The notes under the pieces were generated by a model. It had not been told where the DNA came from, ran no database searches, and worked only from the letters and a program-made list of their open reading frames with translations. The translations under genes and the position numbers were made by a program. A DNA stretch of 35,118 nt from Leptolyngbya sp. FACHB-321 (GTDB lineage Bacteria > Cyanobacteriota > Cyanobacteriia > Leptolyngbyales > Leptolyngbyaceae), in contig NZ_JACJPI010000053.1 of NCBI RefSeq assembly GCF_014695975.1, positions 1 through 35,118 of the forward strand, given 5' to 3'. Position 1 is the stretch's first letter. Each line of letters starts with the position of its first letter. Below, in pieces: positions 2,894 through 29,199 of the stretch.

Positions 2894-3742
2894 TCACCTT
2901 TCTGTGGTTAGTCCAGCAGCTATGATTGCTTGACTGAGTGCTTCTGTAAGATCCAGTGTTTCTGCCCACTGGAAAAGGTAGTCAAAGTCTAATGCTTGAC
3001 CTTGTACTTTGAGTATGCCGATCACGTCTCGCCATTGCTTTTCAGAGTTTGAACGCTGCCCCCAACGCAATTTGTTCAGTACAAGGTCTTCAGGCGAAGC
3101 GAAATAAACCGATCCGTAGCCAATAATGTTAATTAACTGTCTGCGGGCAAATTTGAGTCGATCAAACTTGCTGTCTTGAGCAAGGACTAAGTCGCAGCGT
3201 GAAATGGTTACTTGGTGGGTAATACTGAGTGTCTGCACGCGACCGTCCCTTAAATCTTCAACACCGGGGACATAGAAGCCGTTTGCTTCTAGTTGGCTGA
3301 CCAGTACTGACAGTTGGGTTTGTTCTAGTGTGAACACAATGTCAAGGTCTCTGGTTGCCCTCACTTCGCCATAGGTTGAAGAAGCCACACCCCCAGTAAT
3401 GTAGTAGGGCACCTGGATCTCGGTCAATAAATTATGGAGCAAGAGCGCTAATTCATTTGAATCCTGAATCCACGTCATTACAGTGCCTGTGATTGGAAAG
3501 GGAACAGCGTCAAGGCCTAAAAAAGCCTTAGCGACGTAAGGCGCTAGTTCTGCTTCTGTCAAGTTTGGGTGACGTTGGTATAGCCCACTAACGCAGAAAC
3601 GACGGGTCGAGCTTGTGAAGGCAGTTGTCATGAGAAAGCGATCGCTGTTCGACTTTTGCCGCAGCAACGCAAACTCATATACGTCAGTCTCAAGACTGGT
3701 GTCACTGGCTTGGGACTGGTAGCCTGGCTTGACTATTGCCAT
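2894..3742 (-). CDS. nucleotidyltransferase-fold protein (AbiEii/MNT-like) with N-terminal extension
   Basis: The 282-residue protein carries a nucleotidyltransferase core: ITGGVASSTYGE followed by the metal-binding DLD at residues 132-134, a second conserved SPEDLVLNKLRW segment, and a helical C-terminus. Stand-alone relatives in cyanobacteria are about 180-200 residues. Here roughly 90 residues precede the core and include LYQRHPNLTEAE and YVAKAFLG, which resemble the small partner proteins often encoded next to such genes, so this looks like a fusion of the two (inference). Family members are linked to toxin-antitoxin and abortive-infection systems, but also to housekeeping tailoring, and no toxic activity can be claimed. 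ATG at 3742 follows TAGGAC. The gene is monocistronic as far as can be seen. Confidence 0.75.
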   Translation of the reverse strand: MAIVKPGYQSQASDTSLETDVYEFALLRQKSNSDRFLMTTAFTSSTRRFCVSGLYQRHPNLTEAELAPYVAKAFLGLDAVPFPITGTVMTWIQDSNELALLLHNLLTEIQVPYYITGGVASSTYGEVRATRDLDIVFTLEQTQLSVLVSQLEANGFYVPGVEDLRDGRVQTLSITHQVTISRCDLVLAQDSKFDRLKFARRQLINIIGYGSVYFASPEDLVLNKLRWGQRSNSEKQWRDVIGILKVQGQALDFDYLFQWAETLDLTEALSQAIIAAGLTTER

Positions 3743-3920
3743 GTCCTAGTTTTCGAAGTAAAGGGTAGGAAAGACGTTGGCGTTACCCCGCTCTGTGGTT
3801 AGTTTAACTTGCCTCGTGACCAGCCAACCTAACGCCCTATGAGGAGAGTCAGGAACGACCAAAAACAGACTGGTAAACCCTCTCACTTGTATTAGCGTCT
3901 TTTGACTTTTAAGGACAAAT

Positions 3921-4217
3921 TTAAGGAAGCTGCTGACTCTGCGTTGCCCATATTCTGCCTTCTGGAGTGAGTTTGATTTGCTCTACTTTGCCAACCAGTC
4001 CTTGTGCTATGAGCTGCGTGACTTCAGCTTCTGAGAGTGCATAACCTAATTTGGTACCATTGTAATAAAGCTGATAGGCTTTGGTTCTAGGGTCTTGCTG
4101 TAACCAACAGTTTCCGTTGACTAAGGCGGCAACAATAGCCGCTTGTGACTCGTTGAGGTTAATTTTGGCGCTAATGTCGATGTTGTTTTGGCCTGAAGAG
4201 CCTTGGGGGTCGAGCAT
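3921..4217 (-). CDS. hypothetical protein, 98 aa
   Basis: I do not recognise this protein. It is soluble, with no signal or membrane segment. The order of predicted elements (KINLNESQAAIVAALVNG, YQLYYNGTKLGYALSEAEV, QLIAQGLV, KVEQIKLTPEGRIWAT) suggests a small winged-helix-like alpha/beta fold, but that is a guess. The start at 4217 may be extended; an upstream GAGC offers only a weak ribosome site. It lies 34 bases downstream of the PD-(D/E)XK-like gene on the same strand and could be co-transcribed with it. Confidence 0.6.
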   Translation of the reverse strand: MLDPQGSSGQNNIDISAKINLNESQAAIVAALVNGNCWLQQDPRTKAYQLYYNGTKLGYALSEAEVTQLIAQGLVGKVEQIKLTPEGRIWATQSQQLP

Positions 4218-7052: not shown

Positions 7053-7093
7053 CCTGACGCTCATCGTTAGGCGATAGAGCGCGGGCTTCCAAC
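7053..7093 (-). repeat. IS605-family right-end / guide-RNA scaffold segment of the first tnpB
   Basis: On the minus strand the end of tnpB runs GGAAGCCCGCGCTCTA, a 12-base spacer, then GAGCGTCAGG. The same two blocks recur in the orphan copy at 8406-8446. In TnpB systems the omega RNA (reRNA) ends at the element right end, so this segment is the likely scaffold, with the guide read from adjacent sequence towards the phosphatase gene. Confidence 0.5.
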
Positions 7094-8278
7094 TTCAACG
7101 GAAGCAACCTCGGAGTGCATGGCTTTTTTACGTCCAGCACCCTTCGGATTTACACTCCCTCGATTGGCAGTAGCGCTGATTCCCAACGCCAATAACCGCA
7201 AGCCTTCATTCTTGATATTGATCGCGGCATTGACATCCCGGTCATGCCGCTGACCACAGTGAGGGCAAAGGAAGGAGCGCACAGAGAGAGCCAGCTTGGG
7301 GAGCGATAGCAGTGTGTTGGAGCAAAGGTGCGAGGAAGGAAAGAACCGATCGATTTCTAGATAGGTCTTGCCGTCAAACTCAGCTTTGTATTTCAACATC
7401 GTGCAGAACTTTCCCCAACCAGCGTCGCTGATGGCTTTGGCGAGGGTGTGATTCTTGACCATGTTTTTCACTGCCAGATTTTCCACCACCACAACTTGGT
7501 TTTCGTTGACTAGCTTGCGGGATAGTTTGTGGAGAAAATCCTCTCTGACCCTAGCGATTTTGCTATGAACTTTAGCCACCAGGCGACGCGCTTTGCAGCG
7601 TGTCTTACTACCCTTTTGCTTGCGGGATAGCTTCTGCTGTTTGCGTTTCAGGTTCTTAGCGTGTTTTTGGAGGTGCTTCGGGTTGTGAAACTTGGAGCCA
7701 TCAGAGGTGACAACAAAATCAATTAACCCCAAGTCAAGCCCAACCGCCTTACCATCGCTGCTGCTTTCAGGCATCGCTTTGCCGTCATCAATGAGCAACG
7801 AAGCGTAGTAGCGCTCATCTGGTGTTTTTGAAACGGTGACAGTCTTGATTGCACCTGTGGGCAAAGCCCGATGCAGCTTGGCTCTGACCGTACCGAGATT
7901 GCCAGGAAACTTGATTGCTACCCCATCCAACATCTTCACGTTTTGAGGGTATTGCACAGACTGACGAGCAAACTTACTCTTGAAGGTGGGATATTTTGCC
8001 CTGCCCTCAAAGAAGTTGATAAACGCCTGCGAAAGATGTAGAACGGCTTGCTGGAGGCATTGCGAATAAGTCTCCTTTAACCATTCAAACTCTTGCTTTA
8101 AAGCTGGTATCCGCTTCTTCATGTCGTAAGCAGACACGCCTTTACCCGTCTCTTTGTACGTCTGAGACATCAAAGAGAGCGACTGATTCCACAACCATCG
8201 TGTTGCACCAAAGTCTTTGGACAACTGGCTCACTTGCTCAGCAGTGGGGTAAATGCGTACTTTTGTCGCTTTCAACAT
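7067..8278 (-). CDS. tnpB: IS200/IS605-family RNA-guided nuclease TnpB (first copy)
   Basis: A full-length 403-residue TnpB. The RuvC-like catalytic residues are all present: D182 in VGLDLGLIDF, E266 in VVVVENLAV and D348 in HDRDVNAAINI. The basic arginine/lysine-rich region between residues 200 and 250 fits the RNA-binding part. The zinc ribbon is unusual: CPHC (C338, C341) is intact, but the first pair reads C319-S-N-T, so one ligand is missing, which I believe is common in this cyanobacterial subgroup. No tnpA accompanies it, so it is an IS1341-like, non-autonomous element. TnpB proteins cut DNA under guidance of an RNA from the element right end. It sits between the phosphatase gene and a truncated gene. 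Confidence 0.92.
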   Translation of the reverse strand: MLKATKVRIYPTAEQVSQLSKDFGATRWLWNQSLSLMSQTYKETGKGVSAYDMKKRIPALKQEFEWLKETYSQCLQQAVLHLSQAFINFFEGRAKYPTFKSKFARQSVQYPQNVKMLDGVAIKFPGNLGTVRAKLHRALPTGAIKTVTVSKTPDERYYASLLIDDGKAMPESSSDGKAVGLDLGLIDFVVTSDGSKFHNPKHLQKHAKNLKRKQQKLSRKQKGSKTRCKARRLVAKVHSKIARVREDFLHKLSRKLVNENQVVVVENLAVKNMVKNHTLAKAISDAGWGKFCTMLKYKAEFDGKTYLEIDRFFPSSHLCSNTLLSLPKLALSVRSFLCPHCGQRHDRDVNAAINIKNEGLRLLALGISATANRGSVNPKGAGRKKAMHSEVASVEVGSPRSIA

Positions 8279-12748: not shown

Positions 12749-12762
12749 AGCGAGAGATTTTG

Positions 12763-14532
12763 ATGTTTATAGAAGGATTTGGTGTTGCAGGGTATAGAAG
12801 CTTTGGTAGCGAACTTCAAAGAATTGGACCGTTCAGAAAGTTAAATTTAATCGTAGGGCAGAACAATTCAGGAAAGTCCAATATTCTTTCATTTCTTGCT
12901 CGGCACTATCAAGTAGCACAACAATCAACTATTTCTAGAGTACGGAAGTGGGATATAGATGCTCTCGATCGTCCACTTAAAGATAGTACAGGCAAATTGA
13001 TTGTTGAATTTGGCTGTAAGTTTGACTCTGATTTTTATATAAAAACTATTTTGAAGAAATATGAGCGCCAACTGGAATCAAGAGGGAGTTATGGCAAAGG
13101 TTTAGTTCAACGTATTCTTCAGGCAGAAGCCTTATCAAAGGGGACTTCGTTAGCATGGTTTAAATATGAAGGAAATTGGGGAGAGCAATTAGTATTCTCA
13201 TCAAATCAAATCGATGAGATATTGCAAGAACAAGTATTGGCAGAGCATGAGTGGCTGGACGCATGGGAAATTTTAACCAGCACTCCACAAAGTCGCCGCT
13301 CTGGGGGAAATATTCAACAAAATTGGATACCTGAGACTTTGCGAGTATTAAGCCCAGCACAAATTGAAATACCAGATGTTGCGCTTATTCCTGCAATTAG
13401 AAAGGTTGGAGATCCAGGTTCAACCGTAACACGAGACCATAGTGGTAATGGTTTAATAGATAGGCTAGCTGAACTACAAAATCCAAAGCTTGAGCAACAA
13501 CCTCTTAAAGAGCAATTTGAGCAAATAAATAACTTTTTGCGTACTGTTACAGACAACCCTACAGCTACCTTAGAGATTCCACATGACCGCAATATGATTT
13601 TGGTTCATATGGATCGAAGGACTTTACCTTTAGCCTCACTTGGTACAGGAATTCATGAAGTCGTAATTTTAGCAGCAGCGGCAACAGTTATTCAGGGACA
13701 AATTCTTTGCATCGAAGAACCAGAACTTCATCTCCATCCTCTGTTACAAAAGAAACTTTTACGATATTTAAGTGTCAATACAAACAATCAATACTTCATA
13801 ACGACCCATTCCGCTCATCTACTTGATACTCCTGGCGTAAGTATCTTTCATGTTCGACATCAACATGGACAGTCTACAGTTGAACCTGTTTATACGTCAG
13901 TAGGCAAAGCCTTAATATGTGCAGATTTAGGTTATCGAGCTTCTGATTTACTTCAAGCAAATTGTGTAATTTGGGTGGAAGGACCATCAGATCGAATTTA
14001 TCTCAGACATTGGATACAAGCTAGCGATTCCTCGTTAATTGAAGGCGTGCATTATTCAATCATGTTCTATGGGGGTAGGTTGCTTAGCCACTTAACCGCG
14101 TTAGATCCTGAAATTGAAGAATTTATTTCTCTACGGAGACTGAATCGTTATATTTCTATTTTAATTGACAGCGATCGCGCTAGTTCACACAGCCCAATTA
14201 ACGCCACAAAACGAAGAATCAGAGACGGGTTTAACCAGGGACCTGGATTTGCATGGATTACTAAAGGTCGAGAAATTGAAAATTACATTGCACCAGAAGT
14301 GCTTGAGCGTGTCGTTAGGAGCATTTACCCGGAGGCTGCCAGTATGGTTGACACGCAACTATATGCTCATTGCTTATTTTTTAAGACGGCAAAGGGTGTC
14401 GTAAAAGATAGGGTAGATAAAGTCAAGGTCGCCCACGAAGTAGTGAAATATGAACCAACACTTGATGTTTTGGATCTGCGAAAGATGATTGCTAAATTAG
14501 TCAGTTTTATACATGAGGCTAACGGAGTTTGA
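12763..14532 (+). CDS. OLD-family ATP-dependent endonuclease (AAA ATPase + TOPRIM)
   Basis: The product, 589 residues from ATG 12763, has an SMC-like ATPase: Walker A GQNNSGKSN (residues 32-40), a signature-like LGTGIHE, Walker B ILCIEEPELHLHP and the switch histidine in FITTHSAHLLD. A TOPRIM domain follows: WVEGPSDRIYLRHW with its Glu, then ILIDSDRAS with the paired aspartates, then GREIENY. This is the domain order of OLD proteins, which nick or cut DNA and often take part in phage defence. No UvrD-like gene follows, so it is not a Gabija pair. The gene is visibly AT-richer than its neighbours, which suggests recent transfer. It is preceded by a 59-aa gene 14 bases away. Confidence 0.85.
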   Translation: MFIEGFGVAGYRSFGSELQRIGPFRKLNLIVGQNNSGKSNILSFLARHYQVAQQSTISRVRKWDIDALDRPLKDSTGKLIVEFGCKFDSDFYIKTILKKYERQLESRGSYGKGLVQRILQAEALSKGTSLAWFKYEGNWGEQLVFSSNQIDEILQEQVLAEHEWLDAWEILTSTPQSRRSGGNIQQNWIPETLRVLSPAQIEIPDVALIPAIRKVGDPGSTVTRDHSGNGLIDRLAELQNPKLEQQPLKEQFEQINNFLRTVTDNPTATLEIPHDRNMILVHMDRRTLPLASLGTGIHEVVILAAAATVIQGQILCIEEPELHLHPLLQKKLLRYLSVNTNNQYFITTHSAHLLDTPGVSIFHVRHQHGQSTVEPVYTSVGKALICADLGYRASDLLQANCVIWVEGPSDRIYLRHWIQASDSSLIEGVHYSIMFYGGRLLSHLTALDPEIEEFISLRRLNRYISILIDSDRASSHSPINATKRRIRDGFNQGPGFAWITKGREIENYIAPEVLERVVRSIYPEAASMVDTQLYAHCLFFKTAKGVVKDRVDKVKVAHEVVKYEPTLDVLDLRKMIAKLVSFIHEANGV

Positions 14533-19744: not shown

Positions 19745-21028
19745 TCAAAAGCCATAGGCATAACCGTCCTGTTTGTGCTTGAATTTGACACCGATCATAC
19801 TAGAAAGTTCGACTCTGAAACCGTTAAGCAGCACTTCAAAACCCTTTGCAGTTGGAGTTCTTACCCGACTGGTATATTTACCCTGCTTGACGTGCTTGCG
19901 ATCTTTAGTCAGCACAAAAGCAACAACGTCCCCCGTTCTGACATGGGTGTAGACTGCTTTCGGCTGCTTTACAGCAGGAAACCCCGACGCATTGACACGT
20001 CTGGATTGTCGGCTGCCTTGTCCCTTGCAGTCCACTAACAGCGGTTGAGCAGTCAGAATGTTGACCTTCGCACCTGATTCCCCAACACACGCGGCGTCCA
20101 GGCTGTGTGACTTCGCTAGCCCTTGCTGACAGCGGTTGAACTTTGTCCGTCCACCTGTCCAGCACCGTATGTCTGAGCAATGCTGTCTCGCCATGCTGAC
20201 AATAGCAAAGCGGGTAGAGTTGACAGCCGCCGCGTCCTTGAGCGGTGCCTTAGCCTGCGCTAAAACTCGCTTCAGTACATCAGGCTTGCCAGCCAGAAAG
20301 TCCCCCACGTCCTGATTCCCTTTCTTTGTGTTGCAAGGCTCACAAGCGAGACAGAGATTACTGACCCGATCACTGCCACCTCTGGACTTAGGGTGAATGT
20401 GTTCGATCTGGAGTGGAGTGTCTTTGGCACCGCAATAAGCACACTGACGTTGCCACTTCTCTAGCAGGTATTCACGGACTTCATAGCCTGCTAGAGTACC
20501 TTGCTGGTAATCCAAACCACTGATCTCAGGGTTTTGGAGTTGCTGCAGGTCAAACCGAACTTGCTCAATTTCCAATGTGACAATAGGACAGTAGCGCGAA
20601 AAGCGTTTGATCCAGGTAGAAACGGTCTGGACGCGGTGACTCAGAGACGGAGCTAGCCAACCAGGAGGCTTACAACGATTGAACCGTGCCTTGCGATAAC
20701 GGAGGTTACGGCTGCGGCGTCTACGCCTAAAGCCTGCGCGTTTAGTTAAACCGACACTGATGCCTAAGCCCCGGTGTTTTAATTCCATGCGGAACACAAT
20801 GTCAGCACCCTGCTGAATGGCAAAGCCCGTAAACTTGGAACCAGGGTCGATTTTGAGCCGATACGATTGTAGTGTGGGGTTAAGCACCTGTTGCTGCAGT
20901 ACTAACGTATAGGGATAGGTGCAAAAGACTGCTGCCTTCCCTTGGTCTTGAAGTTCCCTGGCTCTGGCAGGGTGAACCATGTTTAGAGGTGTTAAATCGG
21001 CATTGAGCAAGAACACGTAATTTTGCAT
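19745..21028 (-). CDS. iscB: IscB RNA-guided HNH/RuvC nuclease
   Basis: The 427-residue protein from ATG 21028 (GGAG 8 bases upstream) shows the IscB order: an N-terminal PLMP-type domain (LTPLNMVHPARARELQ), RuvC-I D61 in KIDPGSKFTGFA, an Arg-rich bridge helix (RAGFRRRRRSRNLRYRKARF), RuvC-II E155 in EQVRFD, an HNH domain with CAYC, H210 in EHIHPKSRGG and N224, and RuvC-III H308/D311 in SHSLDAA. A C-terminal domain with VRTGDVVAF and GKYTSRVR completes it. All catalytic residues are present, so it should be active. IscB is the ancestor-like relative of Cas9 and is guided by an RNA encoded just upstream. The frame is open back to 21187, but that part is the RNA region. No tnpA is adjacent. Confidence 0.9.
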   Translation of the reverse strand: MQNYVFLLNADLTPLNMVHPARARELQDQGKAAVFCTYPYTLVLQQQVLNPTLQSYRLKIDPGSKFTGFAIQQGADIVFRMELKHRGLGISVGLTKRAGFRRRRRSRNLRYRKARFNRCKPPGWLAPSLSHRVQTVSTWIKRFSRYCPIVTLEIEQVRFDLQQLQNPEISGLDYQQGTLAGYEVREYLLEKWQRQCAYCGAKDTPLQIEHIHPKSRGGSDRVSNLCLACEPCNTKKGNQDVGDFLAGKPDVLKRVLAQAKAPLKDAAAVNSTRFAIVSMARQHCSDIRCWTGGRTKFNRCQQGLAKSHSLDAACVGESGAKVNILTAQPLLVDCKGQGSRQSRRVNASGFPAVKQPKAVYTHVRTGDVVAFVLTKDRKHVKQGKYTSRVRTPTAKGFEVLLNGFRVELSSMIGVKFKHKQDGYAYGF

Positions 21029-21330
21029 TTCTGCGGCTCCCTCACGGGGTAAGGTTTGCTTTAACTTTGCTCTGAGGCTTGGTACTGGAGTCGGTGTTTC
21101 ACCTTCACAAACTAGGCAATGTTCCTCTCCTGACCGCTTGAGACTAGCGAATCTCATTGGGGTCGTGACCTTTTGAGCGCTTCTCACCTTGCGGTGAAGT
21201 CTGGCGTAGCTGGGTACTGAGGATTACTCCCTTTCCCTCCGAATCACTCCGGTTGTTAGCTACTCACGCCGGGTGCCCTCCTAGACTGGACTTCAAACTT
21301 TTGCTGCGTCAGCAGTCTTGGGGAGCAGAC
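21029..21330 (-). ncRNA. candidate omega RNA of IscB
   Basis: The 300 bases directly upstream of iscB hold no gene but many short stems on the minus strand, for example TCACC-GCAA-GGTGA within 21184-21200 and TGCTG-ACG-CAGCA near 21300. IscB omega RNAs are transcribed from exactly this position, run up to the start codon and take their guide from sequence at the 5' end. Limits are approximate; the call rests on position and structure, not on a family match. Confidence 0.5.
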
Positions 21331-21683: not shown

Positions 21684-21827
21684 CTACCGCTCCCCTTGCG
21701 CCTGCAACACCTGCTCAATCGCTTCCAGCCGTACCGAAGCCTGAATCAACGTTGTGCGATCTAGAACATCCAGGTGGGTGAGTTCCAGACCAACAGTGAC
21801 ACCAGTTTGGTGAATGCACCGATTCAT
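21684..21827 (-). CDS. 47-codon ORF overlapping the end of the third tnpB-like gene
   Basis: The ATG (21825-21827) overlaps the TGA stop of the tnpB-like gene in the arrangement ATGA, the classic sign of coupled translation. The product starts MNRCIHQTGVTVGLELTHLD and ends IEQVLQAQGER; it is mostly helical with a Leu/Ile/Val pattern. It could be a small partner of the nuclease or lie within its guide-RNA end region. Too short for the usual gene-length cut-offs. Confidence 0.4.
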   Translation of the reverse strand: MNRCIHQTGVTVGLELTHLDVLDRTTLIQASVRLEAIEQVLQAQGER

Positions 21828-23164
21828 GACGCAGAGCGTACATGAGCGGCTTCTCGATCCCAGAGATGAGATAAAGTAATCGGCATTCTCGACTTGCCTC
21901 CAGAGCTTTTGCTGGAAGGCAACTGACGACCATTTCTGTACGCCAGCTTTTGTTTGTATGCCCAGTAACGAGCAGCAATATTGTAGGAGCCGTTGAGGTC
22001 ACAGTTGAACCGTTTTCCGGTCTGGAACGTCGCTAAAGCATAGTTAGCCTTGCTGCGTTGCAACTTGCCAGAACCGTCATACGCCCAAGAGGAGGTGCCT
22101 CTGTGGTAAACCAGTGCGACCTTGCCACCCACTTCCACAAACTTGTTTTCTGTTAGTTGCACCAACAGGCGATGCAACCAGCCATGAAAGCGTTGTTTGA
22201 GCGTGGAACGTTTACGTCCACCTTTGGGCTTCCAACCTTGCAAGTCTTCAAACACAATCACATGAGCGCCATGCTCTAAGGCGAGCCGCACAAGCTCTTT
22301 TGAGAGGTGCTGTGCCATGTTGTGATTGAGTCCAACCGCACGACGATACAGCCCCTTACAGAAACCTTTAGAGAGCTTCTAGGTGAGCTTTGCTTTGGCT
22401 CTGATTTGCCCTAAAACCTTGTCACGGCGGTTTATGTCAGTCCCTCGGTGTAAGAAACGTCGAGCGATTACAGTGCCGCCGCTACTGACAATGGTAGCGG
22501 TTGCAGTCGTGTTGATACCTACATCAACAGCACAAACAAGATCGCTTGCTAGCTTTTGGGGGTGCAACTTGAACGGCACAGACAAATGAGCCTTGCCGCC
22601 CTTCACAATCAAGTAGGGTGAGAGTCCTTGGCTGTGTTCGAGCAAATGACGCTGCCGCAGACCCGCAACAGGCACTTTGACCCACACCCAATCAGAAGCA
22701 TTCCAAACCTTGATCTCAGCGACGTCAAACTCGTTGTGAAATTTGATGCACTGCCCCCGATACAAAGCCGGATAGCAGCCTGCTTCTGGATTGAAACGAG
22801 GTGGTTTAGCATCACGACGCTTGCGGTCTCCTGACTGCCAGGTACGATAGCGAGTCAGAAAGGAGGAGACTTGACCACAGACAAAGGTAATGGCGGCACG
22901 TCGCAAATAGCTAGGGAACTTATAGAAACGTTTGCCAAAATAACTGTGTTTCGGGTGTGGATTTTTCCTGGTTTGATGCATGAGCTTTTCCACTGCCGCA
23001 CACTGACTAGAAGCCTCACTGATTTGCGCCCAGTGCCCCATGACAACATAACTAAGCGCTTTGCAGTAAGCCCGATACTCTCTGACCGTCAGATCCAGAT
23101 GGCTTTTCGCCGCTGGAGATGGGTTAAGAGTCCATTTGTCAGTGCGTACAATTGAACTACTCAT
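21824..23164 (-). pseudogene. third TnpB-like gene, split by one in-frame amber codon
   Basis: Reading from ATG 23164, 261 codons end at TAG (22379-22381), but the same frame continues without a shift as KLSKGFCKGLYRRAVGLNHN and then the part that could start at 22318. Together there are 446 codons. The RuvC-like residues fall on both sides of the stop: D214 in CAVDVGINTTAT, then E306 in VIVFEDLQGW and D389 in RFNCDLNGSYNIAARYW. It belongs to a TnpB branch without a zinc ribbon. Unless the amber is read through or is a sequencing error, the protein is inactive. A candidate -10 box TATACT lies close before the ATG. A 47-codon ORF overlaps its 3' end. Confidence 0.8.
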
Positions 23165-25927: not shown

Positions 25928-25995
25928 TCATTGGGCGGTGCCCATCACTTTCCGACTCAAACCCAACGCCTTGCCGCTACGCTCGGTGGTAGGGC

Positions 25996-26793
25996 TCATA
26001 AGGTAAACAGCGTCTTTAGAGCTTTGAGTTTGGCAGTGTCGATGCCACAGTCTAATTTAGTGATGGGAGTCAGGCTCTTCCACTTGCTTCGATCGGCACC
26101 GGCGATCAGATCGGACACGGCTTCAGGATCAACAGTGCCAAAGCCACTAAGCTTATGGCTCGTTAGGTAAGCTAAACGCTCCAAGATTGCTGCTCTCGAT
26201 GCCTGCTTAAGGCTGATGGCAGCCGGTGGTTCTGGCAGTGGCGGGGGCGGCGTTAGATAAAAGGCGGTAGCTAAGGCATCAAGCTTTTTACCTTTAGTGA
26301 TGCCACATTTGAGCTTGGTAATCGGTGTGAAATCCTGCCAGATGCTTCTGTCTGCCGCCGCAATTTTACTGGCAGCGCTCGTCGCCTCTAAGCCTTTCAA
26401 GGGGCTTCCGGGCTGGCTAGCAAGGTAGTTAAGGGTATCAGCCAAGTCTTGCTCGGAAGCGGTGGTTAGGTTGACCCACAGCGTTTGCCCTAATTCGACT
26501 TCTACCTGTGTCTGCATCGCTTGATTAACGACAATGCACCAAACGAAATCGAGGTGTACCAGCCGAGCCGCATCCAGAATCTGTGTATTGAGAATGGCCT
26601 GATACTTATCTTCACCCAATAACCGGACGACCACAGGCAGAATGTTCTTGCCTGTGCCGGATAGTTCCTGAGCGATCGTCTTAAGGATGATGGGTTGAGT
26701 GTCAGACTTGCCCTTAATAAATTTGCAAGGGAGACGGCGGATTTGACCGAGTGTGACATCAAGCGGTGATGCCTCTGTTTGTGTGGCAGTCAT
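25996..26793 (-). CDS. ParB-like partner protein with duplicated C-terminal module
   Basis: The ATG at 26793 comes 2 bases after the stop of the ParA-fusion gene, so the two form an operon. Residues 1-105 resemble the ParB/sulfiredoxin fold: DVTLGQIRRLP, then EDKYQAILNTQILDAARLVH and VWCIVVNQAM. The rest is an internal duplication: residues 115-180 and 199-265 align, with ADRSIWQDFTPITKLKCGI against ADRSKWKSLTPITKLDCGI, separated by a Pro-rich linker (PPPPLPEPP). The repeated module is probably a small helical DNA-binding unit. By analogy it would bind a centromere-like site and stimulate the ParA ATPase. Confidence 0.75.
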   Translation of the reverse strand: MTATQTEASPLDVTLGQIRRLPCKFIKGKSDTQPIILKTIAQELSGTGKNILPVVVRLLGEDKYQAILNTQILDAARLVHLDFVWCIVVNQAMQTQVEVELGQTLWVNLTTASEQDLADTLNYLASQPGSPLKGLEATSAASKIAAADRSIWQDFTPITKLKCGITKGKKLDALATAFYLTPPPPLPEPPAAISLKQASRAAILERLAYLTSHKLSGFGTVDPEAVSDLIAGADRSKWKSLTPITKLDCGIDTAKLKALKTLFTL

Positions 26794-26795
26794 AG

Positions 26796-28196
26796 TTAAT
26801 GATCGATAAAGTTTGGGTTTAAGAAGAGTTCGTCAATCAGCTTGGTATAGAGCTTGGTAATCGGAGAGCTTTGCCAGCAGATCACTGGAACGTGCTTAAA
26901 CTCGGCAACTTTCGTCTGTGCAAAAGTACTTAAACGAGTTTTACATTGGTTGCCGCTAAAGTTACTTTTCTTCAATTCCTGCTTAATGTGTTCCTCTAGA
27001 ACAACGCCTGCGTCTCCAGGGCAATTGCTAAAGACAATGCCAAGATTCCAGGGTCCAAGGTGCAACCGCTCTTTTTTCGCAGCCCTCACCTCACGGAACT
27101 TGGGGAGCGTAGTGCTGTAGAGTTGCACAGCATGGTGTAGAGACTTGCCACCGAGATCGATGGGAATGAGCACCGTATCACAGGTGAGAAGCACGCTTTG
27201 AGTGAGCTTGTCAGGGGTGGGGGAGACATCGATAAAGATGTAGTCATAGTCCAAGTACAACAGCTTGACTAACTTTTTGAAGATGACAGCAGTTTCGACA
27301 TCGTCACTATCACGAAAAGCTTTAAGCCCTTTTTCATCACTGGAAAGCACTGAAAGCTTGAAGTCTTTCTTCATCTTGTCAGTGGTGGGAAACTTGCGAA
27401 TCTGAATAGCTTTGTTTAAGATCTGCTTGGCTTCGTCCCACTCTTCAAGCTGAATTTTCTTGTCGCATTGCTCCAGGTAACCTGGGAGCCAATTAGGATC
27501 AGCGCCGACACCGCGCGTTAAATCATTTTGTGGGTCAAGGTCAATGAGCAAGACTCGTTTCCCTTCTAGTGCTAAAGCTGCCCCCATGTTGACAATGTTA
27601 GTTGTCTTCGCCACACCACCTTTCTGATTCCAGATGGCAGACACTAAAGCAGTGTGCGGATGATCTAGACAGTACTCTAGCTGCTGCATTAAACCCGGAA
27701 GGCTTGTTTTAGTCACCTTTTGAATGGGCGTCATGGGCAAGACTAACCCGTCAACACGCCGCCAAAGCTGGAAAAAGTCACCGTTGAAGACCAAGCCGTA
27801 GGAAGCCAAGAGATGAGGAGAAACACTGTTGTTTAAGTAATGTTTGATGCCTCGATTGTTTTTACCGCAGTCCTCATAACCTACGGCTTGTCGGTAGAGG
27901 GTATGGTTTTTACAAGCGGCTGCAAAATCTTTCTCCGGAATAGCAGCCAAGACTGGATCGCGCCTTTTGTTTTCAATCACCAACACAGGTGCTTGATTGA
28001 TGTCTTGATAGATCAAGCGGTCAGGCGTACCAAAACCTGATCCTAAGTTCTGCCCAGCTTTAATTTGCTGAAAGTTCAAACCTAGAGATTGCAAAAGCGG
28101 TTGAACAAGACTTACCTCTAAGCTTTGTTCATTGTAGTCAGTCGGCAGTTCAGCCCAATGTTGAGCCAATTTTTTATAAGCGTTTAAACTTCTCAT
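26796..28196 (-). CDS. parA: ParA-type ATPase fused to an N-terminal PD-(D/E)XK-like domain
   Basis: The 466-residue protein is two domains. Residues 1-150 resemble an HsdR-N-type PD-(D/E)XK nuclease fold: GTPDRLIYQDINQAP then VLVIENKRRD, giving D59 and E75-x-K77. Residues 183-466 are a ParA/MinD ATPase: deviant Walker A NQKGGVAKTTN (191-201) with the signature lysine K192, Walker A' LLIDLDPQND and Walker B YIFIDVSPT. ParA proteins segregate plasmids with a ParB partner, here the next gene. A nuclease-like head is unusual; it may bind DNA without cutting. ATG 28196 has GGAAAA upstream. A decayed small gene lies further upstream. Confidence 0.85.
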   Translation of the reverse strand: MRSLNAYKKLAQHWAELPTDYNEQSLEVSLVQPLLQSLGLNFQQIKAGQNLGSGFGTPDRLIYQDINQAPVLVIENKRRDPVLAAIPEKDFAAACKNHTLYRQAVGYEDCGKNNRGIKHYLNNSVSPHLLASYGLVFNGDFFQLWRRVDGLVLPMTPIQKVTKTSLPGLMQQLEYCLDHPHTALVSAIWNQKGGVAKTTNIVNMGAALALEGKRVLLIDLDPQNDLTRGVGADPNWLPGYLEQCDKKIQLEEWDEAKQILNKAIQIRKFPTTDKMKKDFKLSVLSSDEKGLKAFRDSDDVETAVIFKKLVKLLYLDYDYIFIDVSPTPDKLTQSVLLTCDTVLIPIDLGGKSLHHAVQLYSTTLPKFREVRAAKKERLHLGPWNLGIVFSNCPGDAGVVLEEHIKQELKKSNFSGNQCKTRLSTFAQTKVAEFKHVPVICWQSSPITKLYTKLIDELFLNPNFIDH

Positions 28197-28358
28197 GCCG
28201 TTTTCCAGCCTCCATAGAAAGCCTGCTGAGAACGCCCCATAGCCCTGCCAATCAAGCTCATGTTTTTTCTCCCGCCATCACTTCTTCTCTAAAGTGCCCT
28301 ACTTATGGGGGGATTAACAGTGAACATACAGAAGCATGACATAAAGTTTTTGACTGCT

Positions 28359-28564
28359 TCAAAGAGTGTGTTCAGTATTACCTAAGGCAGCTTCTCTAAT
28401 AGCTGTCCGCAACCACTCAGCTCGATTCGGCAGCGATGGGACATAGGTGTCCAAAGCTTTGGGCAAGAACACTGAAATCGGTTTCTCAGCTAGCGCTTCA
28501 TTGCCAATCGGCTTAAAACGGGTGCGATCATCTCCACAGGTTTCGGTCAGGGCTCAGTTGTCAC
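28359..28564 (-). pseudogene. small RHH-like/antitoxin-like gene with a 5' frameshift
   Basis: The frame ending at TGA 28359 reads DDRTRFKPIGNEALAEKPIS, VFLPKALDTYVPSLPN and RAEWLRTAIREAA, a pattern I know from small cyanobacterial proteins that look like ribbon-helix-helix DNA-binding proteins. Its frame has no start codon: the plausible GTG at 28564 is in another frame, and a one-base shift near 28550 is needed to join them. So it appears broken, although a sequencing error could explain it. It lies upstream of and in line with parA, where an autoregulator would be expected. Confidence 0.5.
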
Positions 28565-29199
28565 TTGAAGAACGTCACACTGTCTGCAAAGGAAGTCACA
28601 GCGTCCTTTCTTTAAGTTGCCTTAAAGACTCACTTTCTCATATTGGACAGTCACATATTGTCGATCAGTTTAGTGATCTGCAATTTCCATCTTGTGAAGG
28701 AGCCAGATCTCTAGCGCCCTTTGCCAATGAGGAGCGTCAGCTTGCAACGCTAGCACCTGTCAGCGTTTTAGGCTTTTGGCCCACTTCTAATCTGTGCTGT
28801 TTAACCACAGCTGATCCCAGGTCATCACAAGCCAGCACGCTGGTCTGGAGGGACACTGACCCATGACGCCACTCATTGGCAAACCGCGCCACCTTTTCGG
28901 CTCGGACTAACGGCTGTGCCGTGGGCAACCCCTCGCTCGCTGCCACCGCAGATGTTAAGTGGGCACCTGCTGGCAGCGATCAGGGAGTTGCTCTGGGCGG
29001 AGGGTTTGACCCGTTGCCCTCATGAGACTCTTGGTGCTGCTGCTGTGCTTGATTCGCTTTGAGTCAATCTTTGGACGAATCGTCGGTCAGACTGATCGCT
29101 CAGATTGAATTTAGCAGAGCCAAGTAGAGTGCAGCAGGACATGACTTGATTTGATTTTGGAGTAACGCTAAGCGACGAACGTTTTTAGAACTCTCCTTT
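28565..29199. other. gene-free stretch between the par operon and the MocR gene
   Basis: Several overlapping open frames exist on both strands, but none has a good ribosome site or protein-like composition. It may be decayed sequence at the junction between plasmid-like and chromosome-like DNA. Nothing else recognised. Confidence 0.4.

Follow-up and report, generated by a model that had tools for sequence, protein, structure and literature searches.

The cassette and its features

The window, meaning the whole stretch of DNA analysed, is the complete 35,118-bp contig C49 of Leptolyngbya sp. FACHB-321. An initial annotation had picked out the locus 26796-28196, which holds a gene predicted to fuse a nuclease-type head to a ParA ATPase. 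That gene stood up to analysis, and a second gene at 25996-26793, encoding a ParB-like protein, had been missed; it starts 2 nt past the fusion stop codon on the same strand. The features referred to throughout are the following:

25996..28679, reverse strand: block of DNA common to the window and contig C21 of the same genome (blastn)
26796..28196, reverse strand: fusion gene, HsdR_N-type PD-(D/E)XK head plus ParA ATPase (open reading frame, Pfam, 60-sequence alignment, AlphaFold model)
27663..28196, reverse strand: nuclease-type head, residues 1-178 (Pfam HSDR_N and HSDR_N_2 in relatives, hhalign to a type IIG N-terminus)
26799..27656, reverse strand: ParA domain, residues 181-466 (Pfam AAA_31, VIA-align)
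25996..26793, reverse strand: ParB-like partner gene, 265 aa (adjoins 54 of 60 aligned fusions; predicted model)
26482..26745, reverse strand: partner N-domain of ParB/Srx fold, residues 17-104 (Foldseek, VIA, ParB_N in relatives)
26251..26481, reverse strand: first helical repeat of the partner, residues 105-181 (VIA match to ComEA 8dss)
25999..26211, reverse strand: second copy of the same repeat, residues 195-265 (alignment, by eye)
28359..28553, reverse strand: possible small ribbon-helix-helix-like reading frame upstream of the fusion (label by eye)

The ParA domain of the fusion

The fusion frame encodes 466 aa from an ATG start, and its AlphaFold model (md02fdfc933ac) has a mean pLDDT of 81.3. 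A complete ParA domain with K192 and a Walker A motif had been proposed in the initial annotation and was readily recovered: Pfam AAA_31 matched residues 186-362 (E 1.5e-28; 100.4 bits against a cut-off of 27), and the domain carries KGGVAKTT (signature lysine K192, and K197) and a Walker B aspartate, D323. Each of these three residues is kept in 60 of 60 aligned fusions, which are open frames collected from annotated plasmids, genome and viral contigs, and whole-genome scans, the genome-contig scan having supplied the best 80 of 526 matches. Structural comparison of the ParA domain with H. pylori Soj using VIA-align gave a Z of 25.4 (rmsd 2.4, 246 aligned), and the model scored 22.1 against 3ez2 and 21.7 against 7npe, with the carboxysome-positioning McdA also among its structural matches. 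Judged from its sequence, the window fusion carries a complete ParA ATPase domain.

The nuclease-type head

The head contains E23, D59, and E75-x-K77, followed by G134, N138, and Q143. Its predicted elements are a helix (23-37), strands at 45-47, 60-62, and 72-76, helices, and a strand at 133-137, an order that in the AlphaFold model fits the PD-(D/E)XK core fold, of which an E23-type residue is typical. D59, E75, and K77, which had been named before any alignment was made, are kept in 58, 60, and 59 of the 60 fusions, and E23 in all 60; after a 90% redundancy filter the counts among the remaining 54 fusions are 54 for E23, 52 for D59, 54 for E75, and 53 for K77. All four fall within the ten most conserved of 178 head columns, in a domain whose median column has a modal frequency of 0.42-0.43 and whose mean pairwise identity is 36%. 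Conservation across 60 fusions rules out a chance D/E/K pattern. The initial annotation had taken conservation of these residues as the mark of an enzyme, and by that standard its alternative, a fold used for binding only, is disfavoured.

Two fusions depart from the active-site pattern. The fusion at L022:4989-6365 has D59N and also stands without an adjacent partner, a joint loss of active-site residue and partner. The one at L289:5838-7217 has D59G and K77T and retains both its ParA motifs and its partner, so that it is apparently a natural nuclease-dead variant in which the nuclease may be dispensable.

The match of the window protein itself to HSDR_N is weak (11.8 bits and E 0.22 for the whole protein, 15.6 bits and E 0.015 for the head by itself; cut-off 25.1). 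Among 22 heads, HSDR_N matched 13 at E<=1 (best 8.3e-5) and HSDR_N_2 matched 12 (best 2.2e-9), and the divergent fusion L311:4112-5581 passes the HSDR_N_2 cut-off with 36.8 against 25 bits. A profile of the head also matched frames of 1143-1354 aa in the cyanobacterial genome scan, and one of these long frames, L307:1470-5468, contains Eco57I methylase and TaqI_C specificity domains. Aligning the head with the N-terminus of this type IIG enzyme by hhalign gave a probability of 96.9 (E 1.9e-10), and that N-terminus itself passes HSDR_N (26.4 against 25.1 bits). The family matches in relatives and the hhalign result together point to a head that descended from a restriction-enzyme domain or from a common ancestor with one, and they favour the PD-(D/E)XK assignment made at the outset. 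All PDB rows listed for the whole fusion model were of ParA/MinD/nitrogenase-type ATPase fold with no nuclease among them, and head profiles found no nuclease in PDB sequences at E<=10; the head fold therefore rests on sequence profiles and on the order of elements in the model. In BFVD, an HsdR_N-named protein appeared at rank 5 (E 1.8e-3, TMq 0.23).

As an observation on the family, L311:4112-5581 with its partner at 3351-4091, L272, and L039 make up a third, divergent fusion group, and the ParA domain of L311 scores far higher (169 bits).

The ParB-like partner

The window partner alone had no Pfam match at E<=1. Its predicted model (m79ef53372d12, mean pLDDT 83.8) matched Noc and ParB by Foldseek (best E 1e-5), as well as PadC and KorB, and residues 17-104 aligned with M. 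xanthus ParB at a VIA Z of 12.5 (rmsd 2.5, 84 aligned). ParB_N matched 14 of 22 partners at E<=1 (best 8.3e-5). At the position of GERR, the CTP box of ParB, the window partner reads NTQILDAAR, and GERR was found in none of the box rows of 59 aligned partner frames, one of them too short to show the box. The equivalent site is mostly (G/A/L/S)N(S/T/H)..(Y/L)-like, N69 being present in 53 of the 58 partners with the box visible. Canonical use of CTP by the partner is therefore doubtful.

The first repeat behind the N-domain weakly resembles the helix-hairpin-helix DNA-binding domain of ComEA 8dss (Z 6.9, rmsd 2.3, 63 aligned), which perhaps reflects a common arrangement only. In relatives, the C-terminal half consists of one or two repeats, carries a SAP/Rho-N tail, or ends earlier; Rho_N matched 10 and SAP 8 of 22 partners at E<=1. 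From sequence and model, the partner is best described as ParB-like, with additional repeats that putatively bind DNA.

Three fusion copies are present in the Leptolyngbya sp. FACHB-321 genome, in the window, on C21, and on C63. The C21 fusion is 87% identical to the window fusion at the protein level, and the common block (84.8% identity over 2687 aligned columns) spans both genes and ~480 bp upstream. The C63 fusion is distant from the window copy, and the N-domains of the two partners differ; yet window positions 25988-26424, covering the C-terminal half of the partner, match L186:10630-11066 of the C63 copy with 87.6% DNA identity. C-terminal partner modules have thus, by sequence comparison, been swapped between copies within one genome. 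This one case suggests that it is the N-domain, and not the C-terminal module, that pairs with the matching ParA.

Pairing of the two genes

Of the 60 aligned fusions, 54 have a ParB-like gene next to them, at an intergenic gap of -59 to +53 nt, and the fusion comes first in all 54 pairs (only the downstream side was inspected). An adjacent partner is present in 38 of the 43 cyanobacterial genomes with an open-frame fusion, and partner-profile matches occur in 46 of 386 cyanobacterial genomes. On plasmids, where the initial annotation had advised looking for the same fusion, partner and fusion queries returned the identical 7 of 72,556 records, with the fusion match spanning head and ParA; the seven include two L. 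boryana plasmids that agree in length and have an identical match.

The fusions without an adjacent partner are L022, already mentioned, and L266, L267, L268, L271, and L274. The latter five are open frames with intact active sites, and their genomes contained no partner-profile match anywhere, which suggests that the partner would not be an obligatory antitoxin. Three of them (L266:6847-8301, L267:6605-8011, and L268:5376-6767) have rpsB-tsf as a neighbour (by eye); the three genomes concerned measure 2.5-2.6 Mb and belong to one genus.

No iteron- or parS-type array attributable to the operon turned up upstream of six copies, where repeats were limited to short inverted or two-copy pairs; a site of this kind may escape detection or be located outside these regions. 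A repeat array at L187 was considered as a centromere and rejected, as it belongs to a neighbouring gene, in its His-rich end. The ribbon-helix-helix-like frame at 28359-28553 (reverse strand) starts KPISVFLPKALDTYVPSLPNRAEWLR and has ATG in the C21 copy and CTG at that codon in the window. It was found in 2 of the 23 upstream regions listed, those of the window and C21 only, and was dismissed as a conserved third gene of the cassette.

Distribution, replicons, and locus history

Head-profile matches occurred in 53 of 386 cyanobacterial genomes, and at least one open-frame fusion in 43. Broken copies or remnants only were found in six (G083, G121, G145, G289, G357, and G385). Left out of the 43 were G078, whose fusion is interrupted by a contig end, G022 and G087, whose frames are type IIG-like and without a ParA motif, and G048, where the scan match lay in a 1321-aa frame and no ORF of >=45 aa in 9 kb matched the head profile. 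Up to three fusion copies are found per genome, and there are plasmid copies too.

Of the 60 aligned fusions, 20 lie on contigs of 1.7-6.8 Mb, some of them in single-contig genomes, 6 on named plasmids, and 34, including that of the window, on shorter or unassigned contigs. Some large-contig fusions are near rpsB-tsf, gyrA, or gmk, and several copies on shorter contigs have housekeeping-like neighbours such as rtcA, tag, and purL (all named by eye). Among fusion-bearing plasmids, ParA/ParB pairs are also present on CP091923 and CP091917, and ParM on CP091917 and CP091922; ABRG53g, a plasmid of 12.6 kb, has no annotated AAA/ParA-type ATPase other than the fusion. A quick tree does not separate plasmid from chromosomal copies, with at least three changes among 26 assigned rows.

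One genus allowed the history of a single site to be followed: 10 of its 12 genomes hold the block there, joined on its contig to one flank or both, one of these ten copies (G357) having an in-frame stop, while in G418 the flanks are adjacent without the block and in G419 only the 3' end of the partner is left. In-frame stops also interrupt the fusions of G121 and G385. In G083, a transposase-like gene (by eye) lies between the head and the ParA part, and 77 aa are all that remains of the partner. Separately, the cassettes at L264:4934-6164 and L265 lie a few kb from recombinase-like genes (by eye) in 1.7-1.8 Mb genomes, possibly within a genomic island; the L264 locus also encodes a short protein with a SAP/Rho-N-like end.

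No fusion was seen among 241 + 239 + 238 = 718 genomes of three other phyla, in a scan with cyanobacteria as the positive control; head matches at E<=1e-6 were found in 1/241, 0/239, and 1/238 genomes. Candidates from other phyla were rejected as a type IIG-like enzyme (L342) or for having no ParA motif in the 648 residues examined (L344), and the plasmid match H19 proved to be a plain ParA/ParB pair in which the match begins inside the head. Among the loci kept from three viral-contig scans, the fusion was found on one contig only, L100 (= L343). The viral scan with the partner profile was insensitive, as it matched nothing although L100 encodes a partner. A phage origin was set aside on the basis of this one viral contig and of phage records that gave ParA-region matches only.

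Defence-gene context

Neighbouring genes were compared using one to two nearest ORFs per side, called mechanically (90 of 158 near and 90 of 106 distal ORFs). The 90 nearest ORFs matched 98 PADLOC families with at most four members each, and the 90 distal ORFs of the same loci 147 families with at most three each, so that no enrichment of defence genes beside the cassette was found by PADLOC in nearest against distal ORFs. Matches of the fusion itself in PADLOC 2.0 (2023 library) were confined to the ParA region and to PDC-M28B (window, E 3.4e-5 at 187-221; L018, E 3e-8 at 162-234).

Comparison with known systems

Type Ia partition ATPases (P1 ParA, SopA, and V. cholerae ParA2) are alike in combining a ParA of the same fold with an extra N-terminal domain. 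Theirs is a helix-turn-helix, whereas that of the fusion is of restriction-nuclease type with a nearly invariant active site. The partner shares its ParB/Srx-fold N-domain with the CTP-binding clamps ParB, Noc, and KorB, but has no GERR, and its C-terminal half is made of repeats or a SAP/Rho-N tail, where ParB has a parS-reading helix-turn-helix. The head matches the N-terminal HsdR_N-type domain of a type IIG enzyme (Eco57I/MmeI-like enzymes; HsdR is the type I counterpart), and the fusion differs from these enzymes in having no methylase, specificity, or helicase domain, its ATPase being ParA.

In SspE, a ParB/Srx-like domain acts with a nuclease in DNA defence, and the partner gave a weak structural row against it (Z 3.1). 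GmrSD and SspE differ from the cassette in having no ParA, another nuclease, and another nucleotide motif. Wadjet and Lamassu include a nuclease part, and their ATPase and nuclease families are unrelated to those of the cassette. The abstract of PMC4619093 describes a ParB/Srx-like domain and a nuclease in DNA defence for GmrSD (GmrS), and that of PMC10586767 presents anti-plasmid SMC systems (Wadjet) and Lamassu as cases in which a DNA-organising ATPase is turned against extrachromosomal DNA, a likeness to the cassette by analogy only. The literature searched, with most subscription journals outside its scope, held no description of this fusion, nor did passages of PMC5379612. The ParA/ParB pair and the HsdR_N-type nuclease are known kinds; their combination appears undescribed.

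Interpretation

The conserved head, the partner gene, and the frequent chromosomal copies argue for an undescribed DNA-targeting system over ordinary plasmid inheritance. The main reading, to which I would give roughly even odds (about 0.5), is that the two genes form an accessory cyanobacterial cassette, on plasmids and chromosomes, that encodes an ATP-licensed DNA-targeting nuclease. That the fusion cuts is something I infer from its sequence. The target is probably foreign or aberrant DNA, a guess guided by the accessory distribution and the kinship with restriction enzymes, and among the options raised in the initial annotation the cutting of invading DNA would be the preferred one. Its other version, the killing of plasmid-free cells, loses ground to the fusions that have kept intact active sites although no partner could be detected.

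ParA dimers that carry ATP attach to DNA regardless of its sequence, and ATP hydrolysis is stimulated by ParB. By analogy with this biology, ATP binding would pair up the nuclease on DNA and the partner would set it free: with ATP, the ParA part may dimerise and coat DNA, dimerisation would bring two nuclease heads together on one duplex, and the ParB-like partner, by controlling ATP hydrolysis, would load the complex on or clear it from particular DNA. The outcome would be ATP-licensed cleavage of DNA missing a host feature, with plasmids or phages as the likeliest targets. A more far-reaching version, which I advance tentatively and at somewhat worse than even odds, is that the cassette represents a new class of immunity or genome surveillance in which ParA dimers assemble a restriction nuclease and a GERR-less ParB-like protein picks the DNA to be cut; if so, SMC-based anti-plasmid systems would have a ParABS counterpart in it.

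In favour of a nuclease cassette are the near-invariant active site, the type IIG kinship, the pairing with a partner, the patchy spread, and the broken copies. Against a role in defence stand the site occupied in 10 of the 12 genomes from one genus and the rpsB-tsf site in another, as fixed sites in two lineages are unusual for fast-turnover defence genes. Together with the lack of PADLOC enrichment, they leave some weight with a role in chromosomal maintenance. Its fuller form, in which the proteins position cellular cargo or repair DNA on the chromosome as housekeeping functions, could draw on these fixed loci and on ParA relatives that position non-DNA cargo, such as the structural match McdA, but open-frame copies in only 43 of 386 genomes, accompanied by broken copies and losses, by up to three copies per genome, and by copies on plasmids, make it quite improbable.

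The likeliest alternative takes up the partition framing of the initial annotation: a ParA and ParB-fold pair that occurs so tightly together in the same plasmid records could be a divergent ParABS-like segregation module, in which the head replaces the type Ia helix-turn-helix for DNA binding or regulation and cuts nothing. The fusion being the only annotated ATPase of its type on ABRG53g and the persistence of the nuclease-dead L289 would suit such a module. However, mere binding would not need near-invariant catalytic residues, a plasmid role is unlikely for the 20 of 60 copies on chromosome-size contigs, the partners are without GERR, three plasmids hold other partition genes, and no iteron or parS array was seen upstream of six copies, with the caveat on such sites given above. 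I consider this module rather unlikely, and an ordinary plasmid partition operon is disfavoured as the whole story by the chromosome-size contigs, the co-resident partition genes, and the missing GERR. An addiction module of toxin-antitoxin kind, with the nuclease ParA as toxin restrained by its partner, is very unlikely: the close spacing of the two genes, which often overlap, on plasmids and chromosomes alike and occasional toxin-antitoxin-like neighbours (by eye) speak for it, and against it speak the five intact fusions that have no partner, the partner profile being the only antitoxin looked for, as well as the order of genes in the 54 pairs, where the fusion precedes the partner.

ParA and ParB are textbook segregation proteins, and if the nuclease is live, the ATP-licensed cassette would be a case of segregation machinery recruited for the destruction or surveillance of DNA. 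The genes could be read as plasmid partition, and the labels in the plasmid records examined are 'AAA family ATPase', 'ParA family protein', 'hypothetical protein', and 'Rho termination factor N-terminal domain-containing protein'. The cassette may also affect transformation barriers in cyanobacteria.

The window contig

The ends of contig C49 share no exact overlap of 20-399 bp. The right flank of the window, MocR-GNAT-PNPOx, is 86% identical to a contig of the congener G389, and MocR homologues in other members of the family lie on contigs of 0.1-1.2 Mb; on these grounds the window copy of the cassette is probably chromosomal.

Elsewhere in the window, the reverse strand encodes a 480-aa protein with RRXRR and HNH domains (19745-21187), which I take to be IscB-like, a TnpB/OrfB-type IS605 transposon protein (7067-8278), and a shorter, fragment-like protein of the same type (21824-22318). 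On the forward strand, ~11 kb from the cassette, 12760-14532 encodes a 590-aa AAA_15/AAA_21 ATPase, a possible defence gene.
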